Of a stretch of 10,234 nucleotides of DNA, positions 405 to 10,182 are shown piece after piece. Where the stretch lies: positions 1 to 10,234 of the forward strand of contig JABIQT010000120.1 of the NCBI GenBank assembly GCA_018667995.1, in the 5' to 3' direction. Source of the DNA: Candidatus Latescibacterota bacterium (lineage in GTDB: Bacteria; JAAXHH01; JABIQT01). The notes under the pieces were generated by a model. That model saw only the letters and a program-made list of their open reading frames with translations. It had not been told where the DNA came from and made no database searches. Positions within the stretch are counted from its first letter, which is position 1; every line of letters starts with the position of its first letter. A program made the position numbers and the translations under genes.

Positions 405-3400
405 CTACTTCAGCAAGGTCATTCGTTTTGCCTCGTTGTATCCTGTGCTGCTTGTCAGGCGGTATACATAAACACCACTGGACACAAGAGACCCCTTCGC
501 GTTCCGTCCGTGCCACGTTCCGGTGTACCGGCCAGCCTGTTGTACTTCATCGACCAGGCGAATCACCTCTTGACCCAGCACATTGTAGATGGTCAGCGTC
601 ATATGGGCCTGCTCCGGAACATCGTATGAGATGCTGGTACTTGGATTGAACGGATTTGGAGCATTGCCACCGAGGGAGTAGGCATCGGGAATGGTGAGCA
701 CCCGCACCGCGGCGTTTTCCAGGTTCACCGGCAGCGGCAACGCCTGAGGGCCCGCAAGGAGAACGTTTACTAGCGTCACCGTAGGAACCGCGGAATCGTC
801 GATTAGCGTCACGGGGACCAAAAGAATGACACCTTGACCGGCAGGAACACGAGCCCCTGTTGCGCTGTAAATCAAAACGTGCATGCGTCCATCTCGGTTC
901 GCGCTCTGTACCGTCATATCGGTACCATGCCCCGTCAGCACCGGATCACCCAGATCCATCAACTCGGGATCGAAGTCGAATGTAAACTCGGCTCCCCCGA
1001 TGAGCGCATCGCTGCCGATCGTAACGGGAATCATCGGGCGTCCCTCTTCATCCTGGTACACAGCGTTGAGCCCAATTGCGATTGGGGTGCTGCGAAGAGC
1101 CTTAGGCGTGGGTGGATCTTCCAATCCGAGGATATCATTAATAACAGCCACCACATCGAGCACATTCACGGCGCCGTCGTCATTCAGGTCGGCCAGGTAG
1201 AACTGGAAAGCCGCCCGCGCTTGAAAGTCGGCCTCCGCCTCATCCTCTGGTTCCTCAAAATCAGCGGGATTAGGCAACGGCAGTGTGCCCAGCACGAACT
1301 TGATTTCTTTGACCAGATCTAACACATCAAGTTGGCCGTCGCCAATGCCATCGCCCCCAGCGACATCGCCTGGCGTTCCCGTTTGAATAGATCCTGGGGA
1401 GTTGTCCGAGGGCACTATATCTCCCTCGCCATCGCCCACCACATCATTTTGCAGCACCACATCGATTACGCTGCCGGGCGACAGTTCCGGATCGATATCG
1501 TAGGCGACGTCAACGAGTCGAATCTCACCGGATGGAATCTCATCGCCGCTGAGACTGAATACGAGAATAGTCGTTACGCCATCCTGGCCTGTGCTCGAAG
1601 ATACGTCGAATCCAAGCGCCTCGACCGCATTGATGGCACCGAAAAACTCCGCTACTTCTGGCCCCAAATCCTGGGCACTCTCGTTCTCCCCCACGATATA
1701 CTCGGGACGAATTTCAAACTCCACCCCCCCAACGGGCACGGTGGCAGCCAGGTAGAGTGATAGAACAGCCAGTTGCCCCGGTCCGGCAAATCCAATTCCC
1801 AGTGACAGGTCCGCATGGCCGACCGCCTGACCCTCCAGGGAAATCACGGAGGGAAAAACAGATGCATTGTGCGTCAACTCCAACCGGGCGGTTTTACTAC
1901 CGAGAGAAGTCGGAACAAAGTCTATGGTAATATCGTGGCTCTGCCCCGGAGATACTGTGAAGGGCGTCTTCGTACTGAATTGGTCTGCGTCGACACCGGT
2001 TATTGCCGTAGCTGTTACGTCAAGATCTGTCGATCCCGTATTGGATACGGTCACTATCTGATCTGTGGATTCTCCAGATTGCGTGGGTTCGAAGTTGATG
2101 GTTTCAGATGATAAGCTCAGCGCAGCATTGTATTTCACAACGACGCCCTGGGCAATGCCGAATCCGGGCCCCAAACCGGTAGGGTTATCGGACAGTATCG
2201 TCCGATCTCCGGAAACTGGATCGACTCTGAACACGCCCTGTGTTTTGTCGGATAGGATTATATCACCCCCTGCCTCGGCCAATACACTACCCGGTGTACC
2301 GAACGACGGTCCGGTACCAGTAACATCGTTTGAAACGACCGTACGATTTCCGTTTGTAGGATCTACTCGGATAACACCGCGAACCAGAGGAACCACGGAA
2401 AAATCCACGGCCAGGATACTTCCGTCTGTCTCAACGGAGATGTTTTTGATCGATTGAAAAATGTCACCTGTACCGGTGCTGGCATCTGAAATTAACGTAC
2501 GATCGCCGCTATCAGAATCGACGCGAATGATGGCATCGAGTGCGGTATCAGCTATATAGAAATCTCCGTCTTCGTCCAGCGCCAGTTGCGTGGGCAACGG
2601 AAATGTGGGTCCCGAACCGGTGGAAGCGTCAGAAATAACGGTCCGAACGCCTGAAACGGCATCAATCTCTATTAAAGCGTCGATCGACGACTCTACGACG
2701 AATATCCTGCCCGCACGACCCACTACGACACCATTCCCGAACGAGGAACCTGGACCGGAGCCGGAAATGGCATCCGCAATAACGGTCCGATCACCACTAA
2801 GGGGATCAATGCGTATCAACGCACCAGTGCCATTGTTACTGACTAGTAAGTTTCCGTCCGGTTCTACCGCTATCCGGAACGGAAAATCAAGCGCCGGTCC
2901 GGTACCCGTGGTGGCGTCGGATATGATGGTTCGATTGCCGGTTACCGGGTCCACCCGAAATACGGCGTCCAGGCCCGAGTCCGCGATGAAGAGGAAACTG
3001 CCTGGTTCTGCCAGACCTTCCCCCGTGAGCGGAACGACTGTAGGGCTGCCGATTGCATTGTGAGTCAGAACAAGGTTTGCCGCTTTGGCTCCGATAGAAG
3101 TCGGTGAGAACGTAACTGTCAATTCATGGCTTTCCTCGGGCGCAACCGTGAACGGGGCGTTCACGCTGAATTGGTCTGTGTCAGTCCCAGTCACAGCGGT
3201 ATCCGTTACTTCAAGGGCTACATTGCCGATATTAGACACGGTAACAGTGAGTTCAAACGATGTGCCCACGACAGCGGCTCCAAATCCCAGTTCCGTAGGA
3301 TCAACCGATATGACTGGAATCGCGGGAACACCTTCTCCTATCATGGGAACAAGACTGGGACTTCCCGGTCCATTATGCGTGACAGAGAGGGAGGCGTCCG

Positions 3401-4493
3401 AATAGACCTGCGTAGCGGCTGGTGTAAAATCCACGGAAAGGATAAGGGTCCCGGCAGGTAAGATGGAGGGAGTTGTCGAGCCGCTGAAGGCGAATACCGC
3501 CGCATCTGTACCAACCACCTCGATATTGGAGACTATCATAGTCTCCCCGCCTGTGTTAGTAAGGGTGGTTGTTTCCAATGAAGTATCTCCAACAATTTCC
3601 TGTTCGAAATCCAGTTGTGCCGGATCGAACGAAGCCTCCGGCGGAGGCGGAACGATCTGCAAGGCAACGCCGGTATAGTCGCTGAGCCCGGTGACGAGAT
3701 CCTCGATGCCGGAGCCATCCAGATTGGCTCGCTGGATCTTGTCCGCAAAGGAATCCGACCAATACATCTTGCCACCCGCTACATCAAGAGCGATTCCTCT
3801 AGGTCCAACCAGATTCTCTGTAGTCACGAGATCCTCTACTGAGGTCCCGTTAAGGTTCGCCCGCTGAATTTTCTGGGTATCGAGGTCAGCCCAGTACATC
3901 TTGCCACCCGCTACATCAAGAGCGATGTGTTGGGGAGTAAACAGCCCTGTAGTCACCAGGTCTTCCACCGCACTACCGTCCAGATCTGCACGCTGAATCT
4001 TGTCGGCACCATAGTCTGTCCAATACATCTTGCCACCCGCAACGTCCAGCGCGATGCCAAAGGGATTCGGCAGAGCGGTGATCAAATCTACCACATTCGA
4101 GCCGTCCAGATCTGCACGCTGAATCTTGTCGGTGCCTGGATCGGTCCAGTACATCTTACCGTCCGCTATATCAAGGGCAATGCCGCTTGGTATACTCAAT
4201 CCCGTGGTCACAAGATCTTCTACCACCGTCCCGTCCAGGTTGGCACGTCGAATCTTGTCAGCGATGTTTTCCGTCCAGTACATCTTGCCAGCCGCGATGT
4301 CCAGGGCGATCCCGCTGGGAGAATCCAACCCCGTTGTGATCAGATCCTCCACGCCCGTACCATCCAGATTTGCTCGGTGTATCTTGTCGAAGGCGTTATC
4401 GATATAGTACAGTTTGCTCTGACCAAACGCCGTTAAGCAAGAGCCCAGAGAGCACAGTAGCAAGAAAACCAGGCACGAAAAGCGGTAATACAT
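405..4493 (-). CDS. Giant secreted multidomain protein: YWTD propeller, choice-of-anchor D, second propeller, cohesin-like, dockerin, T9SS/FlgD-like sorting domain
   Basis: This is a 1362-residue exported protein. The start is set at ATG 4493-4491 because GGAGGT stands 4 bases upstream and a signal peptide follows directly. The frame extends 20 codons further, to 4553, but without these signals. Residues 1-24 form a signal peptide (MYYR, then a hydrophobic stretch). LGSC at 16-19 could be a lipobox, or cleavage could follow AFG. Residues 28-280 carry six YWTD-type repeats (YYID, YWTE, YWTD, YWTD, YWAD, YWSD), a complete LDL-receptor-like propeller. Residues 286-388, 393-494 and 790-890 are choice-of-anchor D/ASPM-SPD-2-Hydin Ig-like domains. 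Residues 496-788 hold six repeats of the type RVDP-SGDRT-ISD, a probable second propeller. Residues 893-1036 and 1135-1266 look cohesin-like. Residues 1041-1122 form a dockerin with Ca loops at D1048-D1059 and D1102-D1113. Residues 1268-1362 are a FlgD-like T9SS type A sorting domain. The likely location is the cell surface or outside the cell. Ligand and role are unknown; the propellers suggest protein or glycan binding. Confidence 0.9.
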   Translation of the reverse strand: MYYRFSCLVFLLLCSLGSCLTAFGQSKLYYIDNAFDKIHRANLDGTGVEDLITTGLDSPSGIALDIAAGKMYWTENIADKIRRANLDGTVVEDLVTTGLSIPSGIALDIADGKMYWTDPGTDKIQRADLDGSNVVDLITALPNPFGIALDVAGGKMYWTDYGADKIQRADLDGSAVEDLVTTGLFTPQHIALDVAGGKMYWADLDTQKIQRANLNGTSVEDLVTTENLVGPRGIALDVAGGKMYWSDSFADKIQRANLDGSGIEDLVTGLSDYTGVALQIVPPPPEASFDPAQLDFEQEIVGDTSLETTTLTNTGGETMIVSNIEVVGTDAAVFAFSGSTTPSILPAGTLILSVDFTPAATQVYSDASLSVTHNGPGSPSLVPMIGEGVPAIPVISVDPTELGFGAAVVGTSFELTVTVSNIGNVALEVTDTAVTGTDTDQFSVNAPFTVAPEESHELTVTFSPTSIGAKAANLVLTHNAIGSPTVVPLTGEGLAEPGSFLFIADSGLDAVFRVDPVTGNRTIISDATTGTGPALDFPFRIAVEPDGNLLVSNNGTGALIRIDPLSGDRTVIADAISGSGPGSSFGNGVVVGRAGRIFVVESSIDALIEIDAVSGVRTVISDASTGSGPTFPLPTQLALDEDGDFYIADTALDAIIRVDSDSGDRTLISDASTGTGDIFQSIKNISVETDGSILAVDFSVVPLVRGVIRVDPTNGNRTVVSNDVTGTGPSFGTPGSVLAEAGGDIILSDKTQGVFRVDPVSGDRTILSDNPTGLGPGFGIAQGVVVKYNAALSLSSETINFEPTQSGESTDQIVTVSNTGSTDLDVTATAITGVDADQFSTKTPFTVSPGQSHDITIDFVPTSLGSKTARLELTHNASVFPSVISLEGQAVGHADLSLGIGFAGPGQLAVLSLYLAATVPVGGVEFEIRPEYIVGENESAQDLGPEVAEFFGAINAVEALGFDVSSSTGQDGVTTILVFSLSGDEIPSGEIRLVDVAYDIDPELSPGSVIDVVLQNDVVGDGEGDIVPSDNSPGSIQTGTPGDVAGGDGIGDGQLDVLDLVKEIKFVLGTLPLPNPADFEEPEDEAEADFQARAAFQFYLADLNDDGAVNVLDVVAVINDILGLEDPPTPKALRSTPIAIGLNAVYQDEEGRPMIPVTIGSDALIGGAEFTFDFDPELMDLGDPVLTGHGTDMTVQSANRDGRMHVLIYSATGARVPAGQGVILLVPVTLIDDSAVPTVTLVNVLLAGPQALPLPVNLENAAVRVLTIPDAYSLGGNAPNPFNPSTSISYDVPEQAHMTLTIYNVLGQEVIRLVDEVQQAGRYTGTWHGRNAKGSLVSSGVYVYRLTSSTGYNEAKRMTLLK
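2130..3008 (-). repeat. Block of six ~48-codon repeats encoding the second propeller
   Basis: Within the giant gene, residues 496-788 repeat about every 48 codons around the core (F/I)-R-(V/I)-D-P-x-(S/T)-G-(D/N)-R-T-(I/V)-(I/L)-S-D. Copies begin near residues 512, 560, 608, 656, 708 and 755. Each core is followed by TGTGP-type glycine-rich loops and an NHL/SMP30-like strand such as GNLLVSN or GDFYIAD. Six copies suit a six-bladed propeller. At DNA level these copies are more diverged than those of the YWTD block. Confidence 0.75.
3654..4412 (-). repeat. Block of six ~43-codon repeats encoding the YWTD propeller
   Basis: Six copies, spaced 42 to 44 codons apart, encode K-(M/L)-Y-(W/Y)-x-(D/E)-x-x-x-(D/Q)-K-I-x-R-A-(N/D)-L-(D/N)-G. 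The tyrosine pairs fall at residues 29-30, 72-73, 115-116, 158-159, 200-201 and 244-245. Some copies are near identical in DNA as well: a 32-base stretch is the same at 3763-3794 and 3895-3926, and a 31-base stretch at 3976-4006 and 4102-4132. This points to recent duplication or ongoing homogenisation between blades. Confidence 0.85.
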
Positions 4494-4497
4494 GATT

Positions 4498-4503
4498 ACC
4501 TCC
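4498..4503 (-). promoter_or_regulatory. Shine-Dalgarno GGAGGT that fixes the start of the giant gene
   Basis: On the minus strand GGAGGT is followed by AATC and then ATG at 4493. It favours this start over the upstream in-frame Met codon at 4553 and puts the hydrophobic signal sequence at the extreme N-terminus. Confidence 0.8.
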
Positions 4504-4643
4504 ACAATCCAGGGGAAGCATTGACAGGTAGCAATGCCACGACCGTAATGCATCGGTTGCTGGTGCGGCCAAAGGGCTCCACGGACTCGAGCATTCGGTC
4601 TACGAAATATGAGTCACATTTTTTGGGGGAAATATCTCCGTCT

Positions 4644-4672: not shown

Positions 4673-4859
4673 GTAAAAAAACACGAGATAACGGATCGGA
4701 CCTGAATGTAGTCCGACAAGGACGGCGTTAGCTTCGAGATCGCCATATTCATTGTGACATCCATCCCGGAACATAGGAATAGCAGGGCGCGCTGATTCGA
4801 CGTCTCCGGCACGCTAGTCCCACCCAAGGTGGCCTTGTCCATTTCGAATCACATGTGCC

Positions 4860-4888
4860 TTGCCTTACAGAGCCCGGAAACCTATTAT
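4860..4888 (+). promoter_or_regulatory. Candidate promoter for the MFS exporter gene
   Basis: TTGCCT (4860-4865) and TATTAT (4883-4888) are separated by exactly 17 bases, a good sigma-70-type arrangement. Transcription would start near 4895, about 95 bases before the preferred ATG at 4990. It lies downstream of the first in-frame Met (4855), which argues that the longest frame is not the true protein. Confidence 0.45.
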
Positions 4889-4989
4889 ATGGGCGTTCAG
4901 AAATGCCGGCCTTCCGCGTACCTGACGCCCACGCCGCCACACGCTCGAAAAAACGTACATTATTCAAATTTCACGACCAGGCATTCTAT

Positions 4990-6189
4990 ATGACCTCACC
5001 TCCAGCAGCCACACGCCCGCCCTTCGGAGAATTCGTGGCGCTGACTGCCCTGATGATGTCCCTTACAGCACTATCAATTGACGCAATGCTACCGGCGTTG
5101 CCCGATATAGGTCAGGATCTGAATTCCGGCAATACCAATGCAAATCAACTCGTCATCACATTGCTCTTCGCAGGTATGGCCGTGGGACAGCTCTTATTCG
5201 GTCCCCTATCCGACAGTATCGGCCGCAAACCGTCCATATACATTGGCCTGGGGCTGTTCATGGTGGGCTGTGTCGTCTCTTTGGCCGCCGACAGTTTCTC
5301 CGTCATGCTCATTGGAAGATTCCTTCAAGGCGTGGGGGTAGCGGCACCGCGCACAGTGTCACTCGCTCTGGTTCGGGATCAGTTTGAAGGCAATAATATG
5401 GCGCGTGTGATGTCATTCATCATGGCCGTCTTTATTTTTGTCCCTATGATCGCGCCGGCCTACGGCCAGGTGGTCATCATGTACCTGGACTGGCGCTTCA
5501 TCTTTGTATCGTTTCTTATTCTGGGAATCGTGGCACTGATATGGTTTTCCTTGCGACAACCCGAAACGCTGGACGCCGAGCGACGCGTACGTTTTTCCAT
5601 GTCCCGCCTCATGGGCTCACTCAAAGAGATCTTTTCCAACAGAATCGCGCTGGGATATACGATTGCTGCAGGATTTATCTTCGGCGCCTTTCTGAGTTAT
5701 CTGACCTGTTCTCAGCAGGTCTTTCAGGAGGTCTACGGGGTAGGAAAGACCTTTCCCCTGTACTTCGGTGTACTGGCCGTAGCCATTGGCCTGGCCTCCC
5801 TGACCAACGGAGGACTGGTCCATCGACTGGGTATGAAAAAACTGGCCCGAAGAGCATCTCTTGGCTTGACAGTGCTATCAATTATCTTCGTGGTGATCTC
5901 ATATTTATGGTCTGGTGCACCGCCGCTGTGGGGATTGATGTCATACTTCCTTCCGGCCTTCTTCTGTCTCGGTATCATGTTCGGAAACCTGAACGCTCTG
6001 GCAATGGCACCATTGGGGCATATCGCCGGTCTCGGAGCCACCGTAATCGGATCGCTCTCGACGTTCATCTCGGTGCCATTGGGCACGCTGGTGGGGCAGG
6101 GATTTGATGGCACTGTGCTACCTCTCATAGGTGGATTCGCCCTATTCAGCCTAATCGCGTCAACGATCATTCACCGAGTAGAGCCCTAA
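4990..6189 (+). CDS. MFS multidrug efflux transporter, Bcr/CflA-like family
   Basis: This is a 399-residue inner-membrane antiporter of the major facilitator superfamily, DHA1 group, with the usual length for Bcr/CflA drug exporters. Visible hallmarks are Asp31 in the first membrane helix within SIDAMLPALP, typical of Bcr-like proteins; the loop 2-3 signature GPLSDSIGRK at residues 71-80; and about 12 hydrophobic segments with a central cytoplasmic loop near 190-215. The start at 4990 is chosen because homologues begin close to the first helix. The frame is open back to 4855, and another Met at 4903 is possible. CAGG 8 bases upstream is only a weak ribosome-binding site. The VOC-cupin gene follows 75 bases after the stop, on the same strand, and may be co-transcribed. 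The family exports chloramphenicol, bicyclomycin, sulfonamides or cysteine among others, so the substrate here cannot be read from sequence. Confidence 0.87.
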   Translation: MTSPPAATRPPFGEFVALTALMMSLTALSIDAMLPALPDIGQDLNSGNTNANQLVITLLFAGMAVGQLLFGPLSDSIGRKPSIYIGLGLFMVGCVVSLAADSFSVMLIGRFLQGVGVAAPRTVSLALVRDQFEGNNMARVMSFIMAVFIFVPMIAPAYGQVVIMYLDWRFIFVSFLILGIVALIWFSLRQPETLDAERRVRFSMSRLMGSLKEIFSNRIALGYTIAAGFIFGAFLSYLTCSQQVFQEVYGVGKTFPLYFGVLAVAIGLASLTNGGLVHRLGMKKLARRASLGLTVLSIIFVVISYLWSGAPPLWGLMSYFLPAFFCLGIMFGNLNALAMAPLGHIAGLGATVIGSLSTFISVPLGTLVGQGFDGTVLPLIGGFALFSLIASTIIHRVEP

Positions 6190-6264: not shown

Positions 6265-7386
6265 ATGAGTGCATCAGCAGACAACGTGCGGTCCGCAGAA
6301 TTTCGCTTACCGTCAAAGGACGTGAGAGAGGACCTTCCGTTCTACACCAAAACACTCGGATTTCGCCTGGATATGATCTATCCCGCTGACGATCCAGCGG
6401 TTGCCGTCCTGTCCGGCTACGGTGTCCGCCTGAGGATTGAAAAAGGGGCTCCCGAATCACCAGGAACCTTGCGTCTACTCTGTATAGACCCGGACAAAGT
6501 AGCATCCGGTCAACGTGTGCTCACGGCTCCCAACGGTACCAGAATAGAGTTGGAGCAGGCAGAACCTGAGCTCGTTATGCCCAGGACTGAGCATGCCTAC
6601 ATTGTGCGCCGTCTGCAGGACAATACGCCATGGATCATCGGACGAGCTGGGATGCAATATCGTGATCTGGTACCGGGACGTCTGGGCGGCAGTATCATCG
6701 CCTCCCATATCCGCATTCCGGATGCGGGTCCTGTCCCCGATATGGTGCACTACCATACCGTGGGCTTCCAGCTCATTTTCTGCTACAGAGGGTGGGTGCG
6801 ATTGGTGTACGAGGATCAAGGTCCGCCCTTTATTTTGAAGGCAGGGGACTGTGTCATCCAGCCACCCGAAATCCGACACAGGGTCCTTGAAGCTTCAGAG
6901 AACCTGCAGGTGATAGAAATTGGCGTGCCAGCGGAACATGTGACCACTATCGATCACGAAATGGAATTGCCAACCGACAATATCAATCCGGATAAGGATT
7001 TCAGCGGACAAAAATTCATTCGTCACGAGGCAGACAAGGCCATTTGGGGCCCTTGGCGTCTGGCAGGATTCGAGGCACGTGACACGGGTATCAGCGCGGC
7101 GACCGCGGGCGTCGCTTCTGTCATGGTTGCCCGACCCAAGGGACGAGAGGCGGCCCAGGTAACCAGTCACGATTGCGACATCCTCTTTTCTTTCGTCATG
7201 GAAGGTGCTATGACGCTGCATGGTGAAGGGCAGGGAGCCCACGCGCTTACTGCCGGGGATGCCTTTGTGGTACCACCGGGGCACAAAACCTCTATAACGG
7301 ACTGCTCAGAGAATCTGGAGCTGCTTGAGGTGGCGTTGCCGGCCCAGTTTGAGACTTCCGATCACGAAGGAACGAGACTGGCATGA
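6265..7386 (+). CDS. VOC (glyoxalase-like) and double cupin fusion protein
   Basis: A 373-residue cytoplasmic protein, with GGAGGT (6252-6257) 7 bases before the ATG. Residues 9-100 resemble a VOC/glyoxalase module (REDLPFYTKTLGFRLDMIY...). The usual first metal-ligand His is replaced around Glu12, and the second half of the fold looks shortened. Residues 140-225 form a cupin: motif 1 is H162-Y-H164 with Gln169 where Glu is usual, and motif 2 is G194-x5-P200 with H205. Residues 270-360 form a second cupin with a degenerate site: H302-D-C instead of HxH, and GDAFVVPPGH with His340 displaced. So only the first cupin is likely to bind metal. Bicupins include dioxygenases, isomerases and sugar-binding proteins, and I do not recognise a named family for this three-part fusion. 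It sits between an exporter and a PhyH oxygenase, which suggests small-molecule metabolism. Confidence 0.78.
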   Translation: MSASADNVRSAEFRLPSKDVREDLPFYTKTLGFRLDMIYPADDPAVAVLSGYGVRLRIEKGAPESPGTLRLLCIDPDKVASGQRVLTAPNGTRIELEQAEPELVMPRTEHAYIVRRLQDNTPWIIGRAGMQYRDLVPGRLGGSIIASHIRIPDAGPVPDMVHYHTVGFQLIFCYRGWVRLVYEDQGPPFILKAGDCVIQPPEIRHRVLEASENLQVIEIGVPAEHVTTIDHEMELPTDNINPDKDFSGQKFIRHEADKAIWGPWRLAGFEARDTGISAATAGVASVMVARPKGREAAQVTSHDCDILFSFVMEGAMTLHGEGQGAHALTAGDAFVVPPGHKTSITDCSENLELLEVALPAQFETSDHEGTRLA

Positions 7387-7713: not shown

Positions 7714-8526
7714 GTGACAGAATCAGAGAAGTATCTATTTGATGTCCACGGCTACATCATCGTCAAAGGCGCGCTCTCGGCAGAGGAAATAGCAGCTGCA
7801 AACGCGGCTGTCGACCATTATTCCGATCAGATGCCTGCTCGAGGGACCGATCTGACAAACCGATCCTCCACTTTAGCGGGGACCTTCGGACGTGGCGACA
7901 TGGGAAGCCTCCTTCTGTGGGACAAGCCATACGTGGACGTCATCAGGAACATGATGGTCCATCCGTCTTTCGTGTCCCGTTTGGAAGCAGTTCTGGGAAA
8001 GGGGTTCCGCTTGGAAGGACTCGGTGGAATCACCATGGACAAGGGTGCTGGCGGTTTCTGGTTTCACGAAGGTGGCGAGCCCATTGATCCATCCAGGGCC
8101 TACCTCTACAGAAATGGGCAGATGTACTGTGGGATGACCAACATTGCAGTGCAGCTTGCGGATGTGGGGCCGGGCGATGGCGGATTTGCCTGCCTTCCCG
8201 GTAGCCATAAAGCGAATTTTCCCTGCCCGGACGATATCCGTCTGTATGAAGCCCATCAGGACCGGATCGTGCAAATCACGGCAGAGGCTGGCGATGCCCT
8301 TATCTTCACGGAATCACTCATGCACGGCGCACTCCCATGGACGGCGGACCACCAGAGACGTACTATTCTCATGAGATATAATGCAGGAACAATAGGAGAG
8401 TCGGTCACCGGCACCTATACACCACCTCCCTACTTTGATGAATTGACGAACGAACAGAAAGCGGTCATAAGTGCGCCGCATTACCGGCAACCCGACAAAG
8501 GCTCCAATCTTTACAGAACTCAGTAA
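7714..8526 (+). CDS. PhyH (phytanoyl-CoA dioxygenase) family Fe(II)/2-oxoglutarate oxygenase with an H-x-G iron motif
   Basis: A 270-residue protein starting at GTG 7714, with GAGGA (7702-7706) 7 bases upstream. PhyH enzymes couple 2-oxoglutarate decarboxylation to oxidation of a substrate on a double-stranded beta-helix. The N-terminal HGYIIVKGALSAEE (12-25), the core GPGDGGFACLPGSHKANFP (152-170) and GDALIFTESLMHG (193-205) are diagnostic. H204 is the distal iron ligand, and Arg215, 11 residues later, is placed to bind the 2-oxoglutarate carboxylate. The proximal motif, normally H-x-D or H-x-E, reads H118-E119-G120, so the carboxylate ligand at +2 is absent. Glu119, Glu122 and Asp125 are nearby alternatives. 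The substrate is unknown. It has its own candidate promoter, and a uridine-kinase-like gene starts 130 bases after its stop. A second PhyH-like gene appears at the left edge of the window. Confidence 0.85.
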   Translation: MTESEKYLFDVHGYIIVKGALSAEEIAAANAAVDHYSDQMPARGTDLTNRSSTLAGTFGRGDMGSLLLWDKPYVDVIRNMMVHPSFVSRLEAVLGKGFRLEGLGGITMDKGAGGFWFHEGGEPIDPSRAYLYRNGQMYCGMTNIAVQLADVGPGDGGFACLPGSHKANFPCPDDIRLYEAHQDRIVQITAEAGDALIFTESLMHGALPWTADHQRRTILMRYNAGTIGESVTGTYTPPPYFDELTNEQKAVISAPHYRQPDKGSNLYRTQ

Positions 8527-8656
8527 ATTGCTCGAAGGATGTCGCCCTATCGAATCCTGGACCTTGGCATAGGTTACGCGATCGATTTTCAGCGACCGTC
8601 GGTATCGATGCGTCACAGTATCGGTATAGCACGATGCACTTGTGGGCGGGCCGGAT

Positions 8657-9304
8657 ATGAGTACGAAGCAACAAGACCGAACATCATCGGAAGTAGAATC
8701 CATATGCGGAGTGCTTCAAGCAGAGATCCTACGACGATCCTCTGGAAAACAGACACCGTATATGGTAGCGATAGATGGAGCCAGCGGCTCGGGAAAGTCG
8801 ACGATCGGTGCCCAGCTCGCCCTTGTAGTTGAAGCGGCCTTGATTCCTTTTGACGACTTCTATTCCGCCCATGTGCCGGATGCAGAATGGGACCGACGAA
8901 CGCCGGAGCAACGCGCCGTCGAATGCATGGACTGGCGTCGAGCTCGAACTGAAGTATTGGCACCTCTGCGTTCGGGGCAATCTGCACAATGGCGAGCATT
9001 TGATTTCGAAGCGGGAGCGTCGCCGGACGGGACCTATCAGCTGTACCAGGACTACAAATCACGTGCTCCATCTGCTATGGTTATTCTCGAGGGCGCTTAT
9101 TCGGCACAGCCGGCACTGTCAGATCTCATTGATCTCACGATCCTGATTGACACCGAGACCGATATCCGGGCTGCCAGGTTGCGATTGCGCGAGGACTCCG
9201 ATTTCCTGAGGGCCTGGAATGCACGGTGGGACGCAGCCGAGAACTATTACCTTACCTGTGTACGGCCAAAGAGCTCATTCGGTATTGTTGTGACCACTCT
9301 TTGA
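8657..9304 (+). CDS. Uridine-kinase-like P-loop kinase
   Basis: A 215-residue cytoplasmic P-loop NTPase of the uridine kinase/phosphoribulokinase-like group. The Walker A motif GASGSGKST is at residues 41-49, preceded by the strand YMVAID. FDDFY at 65-69 is the signature that follows the second strand in uridine kinases, where the Asp helps position the acceptor hydroxyl. MVILEGAY at 141-148 is the Walker B-region strand, and RLRLRED near 174-180 is a likely lid with arginines. The C-terminal NARWDAAENYYLTCVRP matches the tail I recall for bacterial uridine-kinase-like proteins. Start ATG 8657 is preferred. A GTG at 8642 adds five residues, and neither has a strong ribosome-binding site. The true acceptor could be a nucleoside or another hydroxylated small molecule. 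The APH(6)-like gene follows after 20 bases, so the two are probably co-transcribed. Confidence 0.8.
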   Translation: MSTKQQDRTSSEVESICGVLQAEILRRSSGKQTPYMVAIDGASGSGKSTIGAQLALVVEAALIPFDDFYSAHVPDAEWDRRTPEQRAVECMDWRRARTEVLAPLRSGQSAQWRAFDFEAGASPDGTYQLYQDYKSRAPSAMVILEGAYSAQPALSDLIDLTILIDTETDIRAARLRLREDSDFLRAWNARWDAAENYYLTCVRPKSSFGIVVTTL

Positions 9305-9324
9305 GCTGGATCTCCAGAGGCAGC

Positions 9325-10182
9325 ATGAACTTAGACATACCCGGACGTTTGGCCAATACCTGCAAAGATAAACCCGACAACATGGCCTGGCTGAAGCGTC
9401 TGCCGGTGGTTGTAGAGCAATTGGCTGACACCTGGTCATTGGACTTGGGGTCACCGTACGACAGCGACGAGGTCAGTTGCGCATGGGTGGCCCCGGTCAA
9501 ACGAGCGGATGGATCATCCGCTGTACTGAAGATCGGGATGCCTCACATGGAGGCGGAACACGAAATTCAGGGACTGCAATACTGGGATGGTGATCCGACT
9601 GCATATCTTTTCGAAGCGGATGTCGCCCGGAACGCTATGCTGATGGAGCACTGTGTCCCGGGCACTGTACTACGAAGCTTACCAGAATCGGAGCAGGATG
9701 AGGTCATCGCTACCCTCTTGTGCCGGCTTTGGCGCCAGCCCTCCCGTCCACATCCCTTTCGCTCCATTGCGCGACTCAAACGCTCTTGGTCGGAAGAAGA
9801 TCTTCTGGACCCCCGAAAATGTCTCGATTCGGGGCTTGTCCGCGCTGGCCTACAACTTTTCGACGAATTACTCGACTCGACTGAGCAGGAAGTGATCCTT
9901 GCCACAGATCTGCATGCCGGCAATGTGGTCCGGGCACAGAGACATCCATGGCTTGTTATCGACCCGAAGCCATTTCTTGGAGATCCGGCCTTTGACGCGA
10001 CTCAGCATTTATTCAACTGTGACAAAAGACTACTCGCCGCACCGGCTGAGACCATCGGCCGATTCGCGGATTTGCTGAGCCTTCCTCCCGAGCGTATCAG
10101 ACAGTGGCTTTTCGCGCGAGCAAGCACAGAAGCGGGCTGCGATTGGCCGGGATTGATGGATATTGCTCGAGCACTTCAATAA
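9325..10182 (+). CDS. Aminoglycoside/hydroxyurea phosphotransferase family kinase, APH(6)-like (streptomycin 6-kinase type)
   Basis: A 285-residue cytoplasmic kinase with the protein-kinase-like fold of antibiotic phosphotransferases. Its length is close to APH(6) enzymes. VLKI at 67-70 supplies the ATP-binding Lys69, and LMEHCVPGTVL near 106-116 is the hinge region. TDLHAGN at 194-200 holds the catalytic Asp195 and Asn200, and VIDPKPFLGDPAFD at 211-224 holds the Mg-binding Asp213. The IDPK-x-x-x-GDPAFD form is typical of the streptomycin 6-kinase/hydroxyurea kinase family. AGAGG (9316-9320) stands 4 bases before the ATG at 9325. An in-frame Met at 9226 would overlap the preceding gene by 79 bases and add 33 atypical residues, so it is rejected. 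Known members phosphorylate streptomycin or hydroxyurea. Environmental homologues may act on other metabolites, so resistance is not demonstrated. Confidence 0.83.
   Translation: MNLDIPGRLANTCKDKPDNMAWLKRLPVVVEQLADTWSLDLGSPYDSDEVSCAWVAPVKRADGSSAVLKIGMPHMEAEHEIQGLQYWDGDPTAYLFEADVARNAMLMEHCVPGTVLRSLPESEQDEVIATLLCRLWRQPSRPHPFRSIARLKRSWSEEDLLDPRKCLDSGLVRAGLQLFDELLDSTEQEVILATDLHAGNVVRAQRHPWLVIDPKPFLGDPAFDATQHLFNCDKRLLAAPAETIGRFADLLSLPPERIRQWLFARASTEAGCDWPGLMDIARALQ

Follow-up and report, generated by a model that had tools for sequence, protein, structure and literature searches.

Among proteins of solved structure, the nearest relative of the protein considered here is HygX, an oxygenase of hygromycin B biosynthesis with the same PhyH fold (PDB: 4XC9, 4XCA, 4XCB, 4ZPI). 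HygX reads L-H102-G-G104 at its proximal motif, followed by E202, H206 and R217 (residue numbers taken from HMMER ranges); it thus combines a glycine two residues after the proximal His (+2), a Glu four residues before the distal His (-4) and an Arg eleven residues after it (+11). The titles of its PDB entries name Fe, Ni with 2-oxoglutarate (2OG), and Ni with 2OG and hygromycin B, and since the entries contain metal and 2OG, a protein of this type binds both even without the H-x-D motif. According to the abstract of the 2015 paper on HygX, large substrates reportedly required variation in the metal coordination of this enzyme. We claim no novelty for the site itself, because E202 might already stand reported as a ligand. 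Loss of the H-x-D acid is otherwise a reason for calling a protein inactive, and genome mining picks out halogenases by H-x-G or H-x-A (PMC11186838).

The window, by which we mean the whole stretch of 10,234 nucleotides that was analysed, belongs to a genome of 6.06 Mb in 1165 contigs and carries a gene with the pattern of HygX. The gene and its active-site residues are as follows.

7714-8526, plus strand: PhyH-family Fe(II)/2OG oxygenase of a HygX-like branch lacking H-x-D (270 aa, GTG start, PF05721, orthologues present)
8065-8067, plus strand: H118, probable proximal metal His, invariant in orthologues and aligned with the H-x-D His and with HygX H102
8068-8073, plus strand: E119-G120 (E119 at 8068-8070, G120 at 8071-8073), with G120 at the usual Asp/Glu ligand position
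8311-8313, plus strand: E200, proposed relocated carboxylate, four residues before the distal His, with an acid conserved here in the branch
8323-8325, plus strand: H204, probable distal metal His, equivalent to HygX H206
8356-8358, plus strand: R215, probable 2OG-binding Arg at +11 from the distal His, equivalent to HygX R217

The protein matches PF05721 (PhyH) with 53.3 bits against a gathering cut-off of 22, and its start position is common to the orthologues. The segment 8038-8361, on which a preliminary description of this DNA had focused, is in frame with the gene and spans residues 109-216. Of the residues that define canonical PhyH proteins of the PAHX/EctD type, the distal His and the Arg at +11 are present (H204, R215), and the H-x-D/E carboxylate is absent, the motif reading H118-E-G120. 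The sequence around E200 and H204 is FTESLMH, and the common form in the branch is F-x-E-A-L-x-H-G-T.

A search of genome contigs recovered 30 orthologue loci with 63-80% identity, labelled as Poribacteria, Latescibacterota, Gemmatimonadota/Gemmatimonadaceae, Planctomycetota and unclassified bacterium. FWFHEG is identical in all 30, H204 and R215 are likewise invariant, and E119, E122 and D125 are all retained. Between the window gene and four orthologues dN is 0.14-0.26; dS was returned as -1 in these comparisons and taken as saturated. In an alignment of 227 PhyH proteins made with MAFFT L-INS-i, 133 have H-x-D, 63 have H-x-G and 28 another residue at +2 (N, Y, S, A or H), and H118 falls in the column of the proximal His of the 133 H-x-D proteins. 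As the motif is invariant in the orthologues and H118 aligns with that His, the loss of the carboxylate is real and conserved, and an alignment slip is excluded. The preliminary description had reported just this H-E-G motif, with H204 and R215 intact, and had allowed that the true proximal motif might lie elsewhere in the protein; the first observation holds throughout the orthologues, and the alignment puts the motif where it was originally read.

The MAFFT L-INS-i and profile alignments, which are mutually consistent, were used throughout. Two others placed the motif loop differently from them and were dropped: one made with single-sequence HMMER against HygX, the other built with hmmsearch from 236 proteins.

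The missing acid is a feature shared by many proteins of the same genome. At least 154 PhyH matches are found in it, in agreement with the published abundance of PhyH proteins in Poribacteria (PMC3909097). Among the 151 distinct PhyH ORFs that were aligned, 121 have H-x-D, 28 have a proximal His with no acid at +2, and two have no proximal His in the alignment. Two close relatives within the branch (L008:2867-3628 and L290:340-1158) have no aligned proximal His and carry a His a few residues later, in MPH or LPH. A separate pair outside the HygX-like branch (L003:2436-3194 and L252:2276-3022) has H-S-H as its proximal motif and lacks the -4 acid.

Several lines of comparison place the window protein beside HygX. 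HygX is the top match by phmmer; a profile of the orthologues gives it 80 bits against 37 for the next entry, and a profile of the no-acid branch gives it 105 bits, with EctD next at 69 and SyrB2 at 51. An AlphaFold2 model built from 27 sequences (pLDDT 78, pTM 0.81, with residues 119-121 below 50) has the jelly-roll fold of Fe/2OG oxygenases, and its best Foldseek match is again HygX. The VIA-align Z scores are 21.1 for HygX, 19.9 for SptF and 19.6 for AsqJ, with FtmOx1 and OkaE also at 19-20, so that fold comparison alone does not separate HygX from SptF, FtmOx1, OkaE and AsqJ. In a tree of 108 rows, from which the motif columns were excluded, one group of 54 gathers 53 of the 55 no-acid rows, including HygX; its SH-aLRT support is only 86. 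The suggestion in the preliminary description that the motif marks a whole clade is thus borne out by family alignment and tree, which place the no-acid proteins almost entirely in one branch. HygX and the window protein share this group, the lack of a +2 acid (G104 and G120) and the acid at -4 (E202 and E200).

The alignments show, at the level of sequence, that the H-x-D/E carboxylate was lost in this branch and that H118, H204 and R215 were retained, together with an acidic residue 200. Glu or Asp stands at -4 in 32 of 34 non-redundant no-acid proteins against 7 of 126 H-x-D proteins (Fisher p 1.7e-24), a comparison confined to these two classes. Four other genomes, reached via the orthologue loci L038, L053, L057 and L048, gave 40/46 against 2/48 (p 1.5e-17); these proteins were partly picked by the no-acid-branch profile and include one orthologue of the window protein, and the result is a replication rather than a blind sample. 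Glu or Asp occupies position 200 in 95% of 165 no-acid sequences, and the distal His is present in the whole group except for one partial row. In the branch, +2 can be G, N, S, A, Y or H, while 200 stays E or D.

These p-values overstate the association, because they count sequences and not evolutionary events. The tree needs about three and four changes for the two site labels, on almost the same branch, and provides two to three phylogenetically independent pairs, too few for testing; the acid may have appeared at -4 and disappeared from +2 in a single evolutionary event. The weight of the argument lies instead in the retention of E/D-200 across a very diverse branch despite the drift at +2. 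The sole H-x-D-type member of the group of 54, L171 (229-1125), has both H-R-D and a Glu at -4, and is one of the seven H-x-D proteins with an acid there; carrying both acids, it is a natural control for which of them binds the metal. An Asp in the N-terminal part, D10, is conserved in 98% of the no-acid branch, on par with E200, and branch-wide conservation alone therefore does not prove a metal ligand. Several of the exceptions at -4 are halves of two-domain PhyH fusions (L164, L275, L286, L292). In these fusions it is the C-terminal half that is without the -4 acid, and the N-terminal half, complete in L164 only, looks degenerate.

With about an even chance of being right, in our estimate, the window protein would be an active Fe/2OG oxygenase of the HygX-like branch, in which H118 and H204 are joined by a carboxylate relocated to E200. 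Iron would be held by H118 and H204 and 2OG anchored by R215; the missing carboxylate would have moved to E200, giving the motif H...E-x3-H, and this residue, lying in the turn that immediately precedes the distal His, would complete the metal site from another direction. The old Asp position would thereby be left free, perhaps, by analogy with HygX, for a bulky substrate. The reaction would most likely be of the ordinary kind, in which H-atom abstraction leads to hydroxylation or oxidative ring closure, rather than halogenation, and the substrate might be, as a guess, a small polar and perhaps sugar-like molecule. In the structural model residues 195-199 form a strand, 200-202 a turn and 203-206 a further strand, and a turn linking i to i+4 in this way would, if modelled correctly, bring both side chains near one metal. 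A loop also occupies the stretch from -4 to -1 in a control model built from 11 sequences for a paralogue with H-x-D (pLDDT 66); the break in the strand is therefore not branch-specific, and the model shows only that such a position is feasible. We extend the proposal to the whole PhyH branch more tentatively, at somewhat less than even confidence: with tens of members per genome, it may use H...E-x3-H as an alternative triad, and calling its H-x-G proteins 'halogenase' or 'inactive' from the motif would then be wrong.

The strongest competitor, to which we give appreciable weight though less than to either form of this proposal, is a two-histidine oxygenase of the kind represented by AspH, in which H118 and H204 would be the only protein ligands, water would fill the vacant place and E200 would belong to the second shell, orienting water, 2OG or substrate. 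AspH is an H-x-G hydroxylase with two His and no carboxylate, and an Asp-to-Gly variant of FIH keeps some activity (PMC10947486). The conservation of E200 fits a second-shell role equally well; what speaks for a ligand is the replacement pattern, E/D-200 being near-absolute in proteins that lack the H-x-D acid and usually missing from those that have it.

A third ligand from E119, E122 or D125 of the motif loop, limited to the orthologue group, is improbable. All three acids are kept in the orthologues, where the conservation of E119 ends, and the loop is poorly modelled; however, across the 165 no-acid sequences these positions are acidic in just 24%, 29% and 42%, and the aligned +1 residue of HygX is Gly. 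Even less likely is a halogenase, in which, as in SyrB2, WelO5, BesD and AdaV, the Gly would make room for a halide. H-E-G does conform to the H-x-G/A signature of these enzymes (PMC11186838, PMC12346261), but the chlorinating-enzyme model TIGR01762, which covers the SyrB2/CytC3 kind only, gives 18.0 bits, with its cut-off at 226.3; HygX is nearer than SyrB2 by the branch profile; the +2 residue is freely N, S, Y or H in the branch, where halogenases have Gly or Ala; and a nearby Glu is conserved at -4. That the protein is an inactive, non-catalytic relative is equally hard to credit: one canonical ligand is indeed lost, but the remaining site residues persist in orthologues that are labelled as several phyla, and HygX of the same branch binds Fe or Ni and 2OG. 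Halogenation, the loop acids and inactivity had all been entertained in the preliminary description, in which E200 did not figure. Against the first stand the nearness of HygX and the low TIGR01762 score, against the second the far better conserved acid at 200, with no evidence placing E119 or E122 on the metal, and against the third the retention of H118, H204, R215 and E200 across the branch.

Other genes of the window are the following.

405-4553, minus strand: 1382-aa protein with LDL-receptor class B repeats (138 bits) and ASPM/HYDIN-like Ig domains
4855-6189, plus strand: Bcr/CflA-family MFS efflux transporter (TIGR00710, 215.6 bits, above cut-off)
6265-7386, plus strand: 373-aa protein with two cupin stretches and an N-terminal glyoxalase/VOC-like part, recognized by eye only
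8642-9304, plus strand: uridine-kinase-like P-loop protein
9226-10182, plus strand: APH(6)/hydroxyurea-kinase-like protein (PF04655, 111.7 bits; below the NCBI APH(6) cut-off)

The last of these overlaps 8642-9304 and hence probably starts further in. The product of 405-4553 also has a dockerin-like stretch and a C-terminal domain resembling FlgD or secretion-sorting domains; LDL-receptor repeats have been reported in Poribacteria (PMC3909097). Beside the orthologues none of the window's neighbours recurs, except for the APH-like gene at one locus (L031). The orthologues are flanked by genes for an M19 dipeptidase, a DegT/DnrJ aminotransferase, an enolase-superfamily protein and an HpcH/HpaI aldolase, and the neighbouring genes are too varied for the context to give a substrate.

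What emerges is a large, expanded group of environmental oxygenases without the H-x-D acid, yet with an acid nearby. Should E200 prove to be a ligand, a second motif would have to be added to the definition of the family and to screens for halogenases. Otherwise the group would represent a large natural collection of two-histidine oxygenases, which to our knowledge are otherwise known mainly from AspH.

Set against the known systems, the window protein agrees with HygX in fold and in the entire pattern of site residues, at about 20% identity and with about ten extra residues after the motif in one relative to the other; the gene for HygX comes from an antibiotic cluster, whereas the window gene lies in no evident one. 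With human PAHX and EctD it has the fold, both histidines and the Arg in common, but differs from them in its H-E-G motif, where they carry H-x-D, and in its Glu at -4. SyrB2 and CytC3 share with it the superfamily fold and the lack of an acid at +2, but their similarity to it is far lower than that of HygX, and it falls short of the model for chlorinating enzymes. Human AspH, finally, resembles it in being an H-x-G hydroxylase (PMC10947486), but belongs to a different family and has a site reported to consist of two histidines only.
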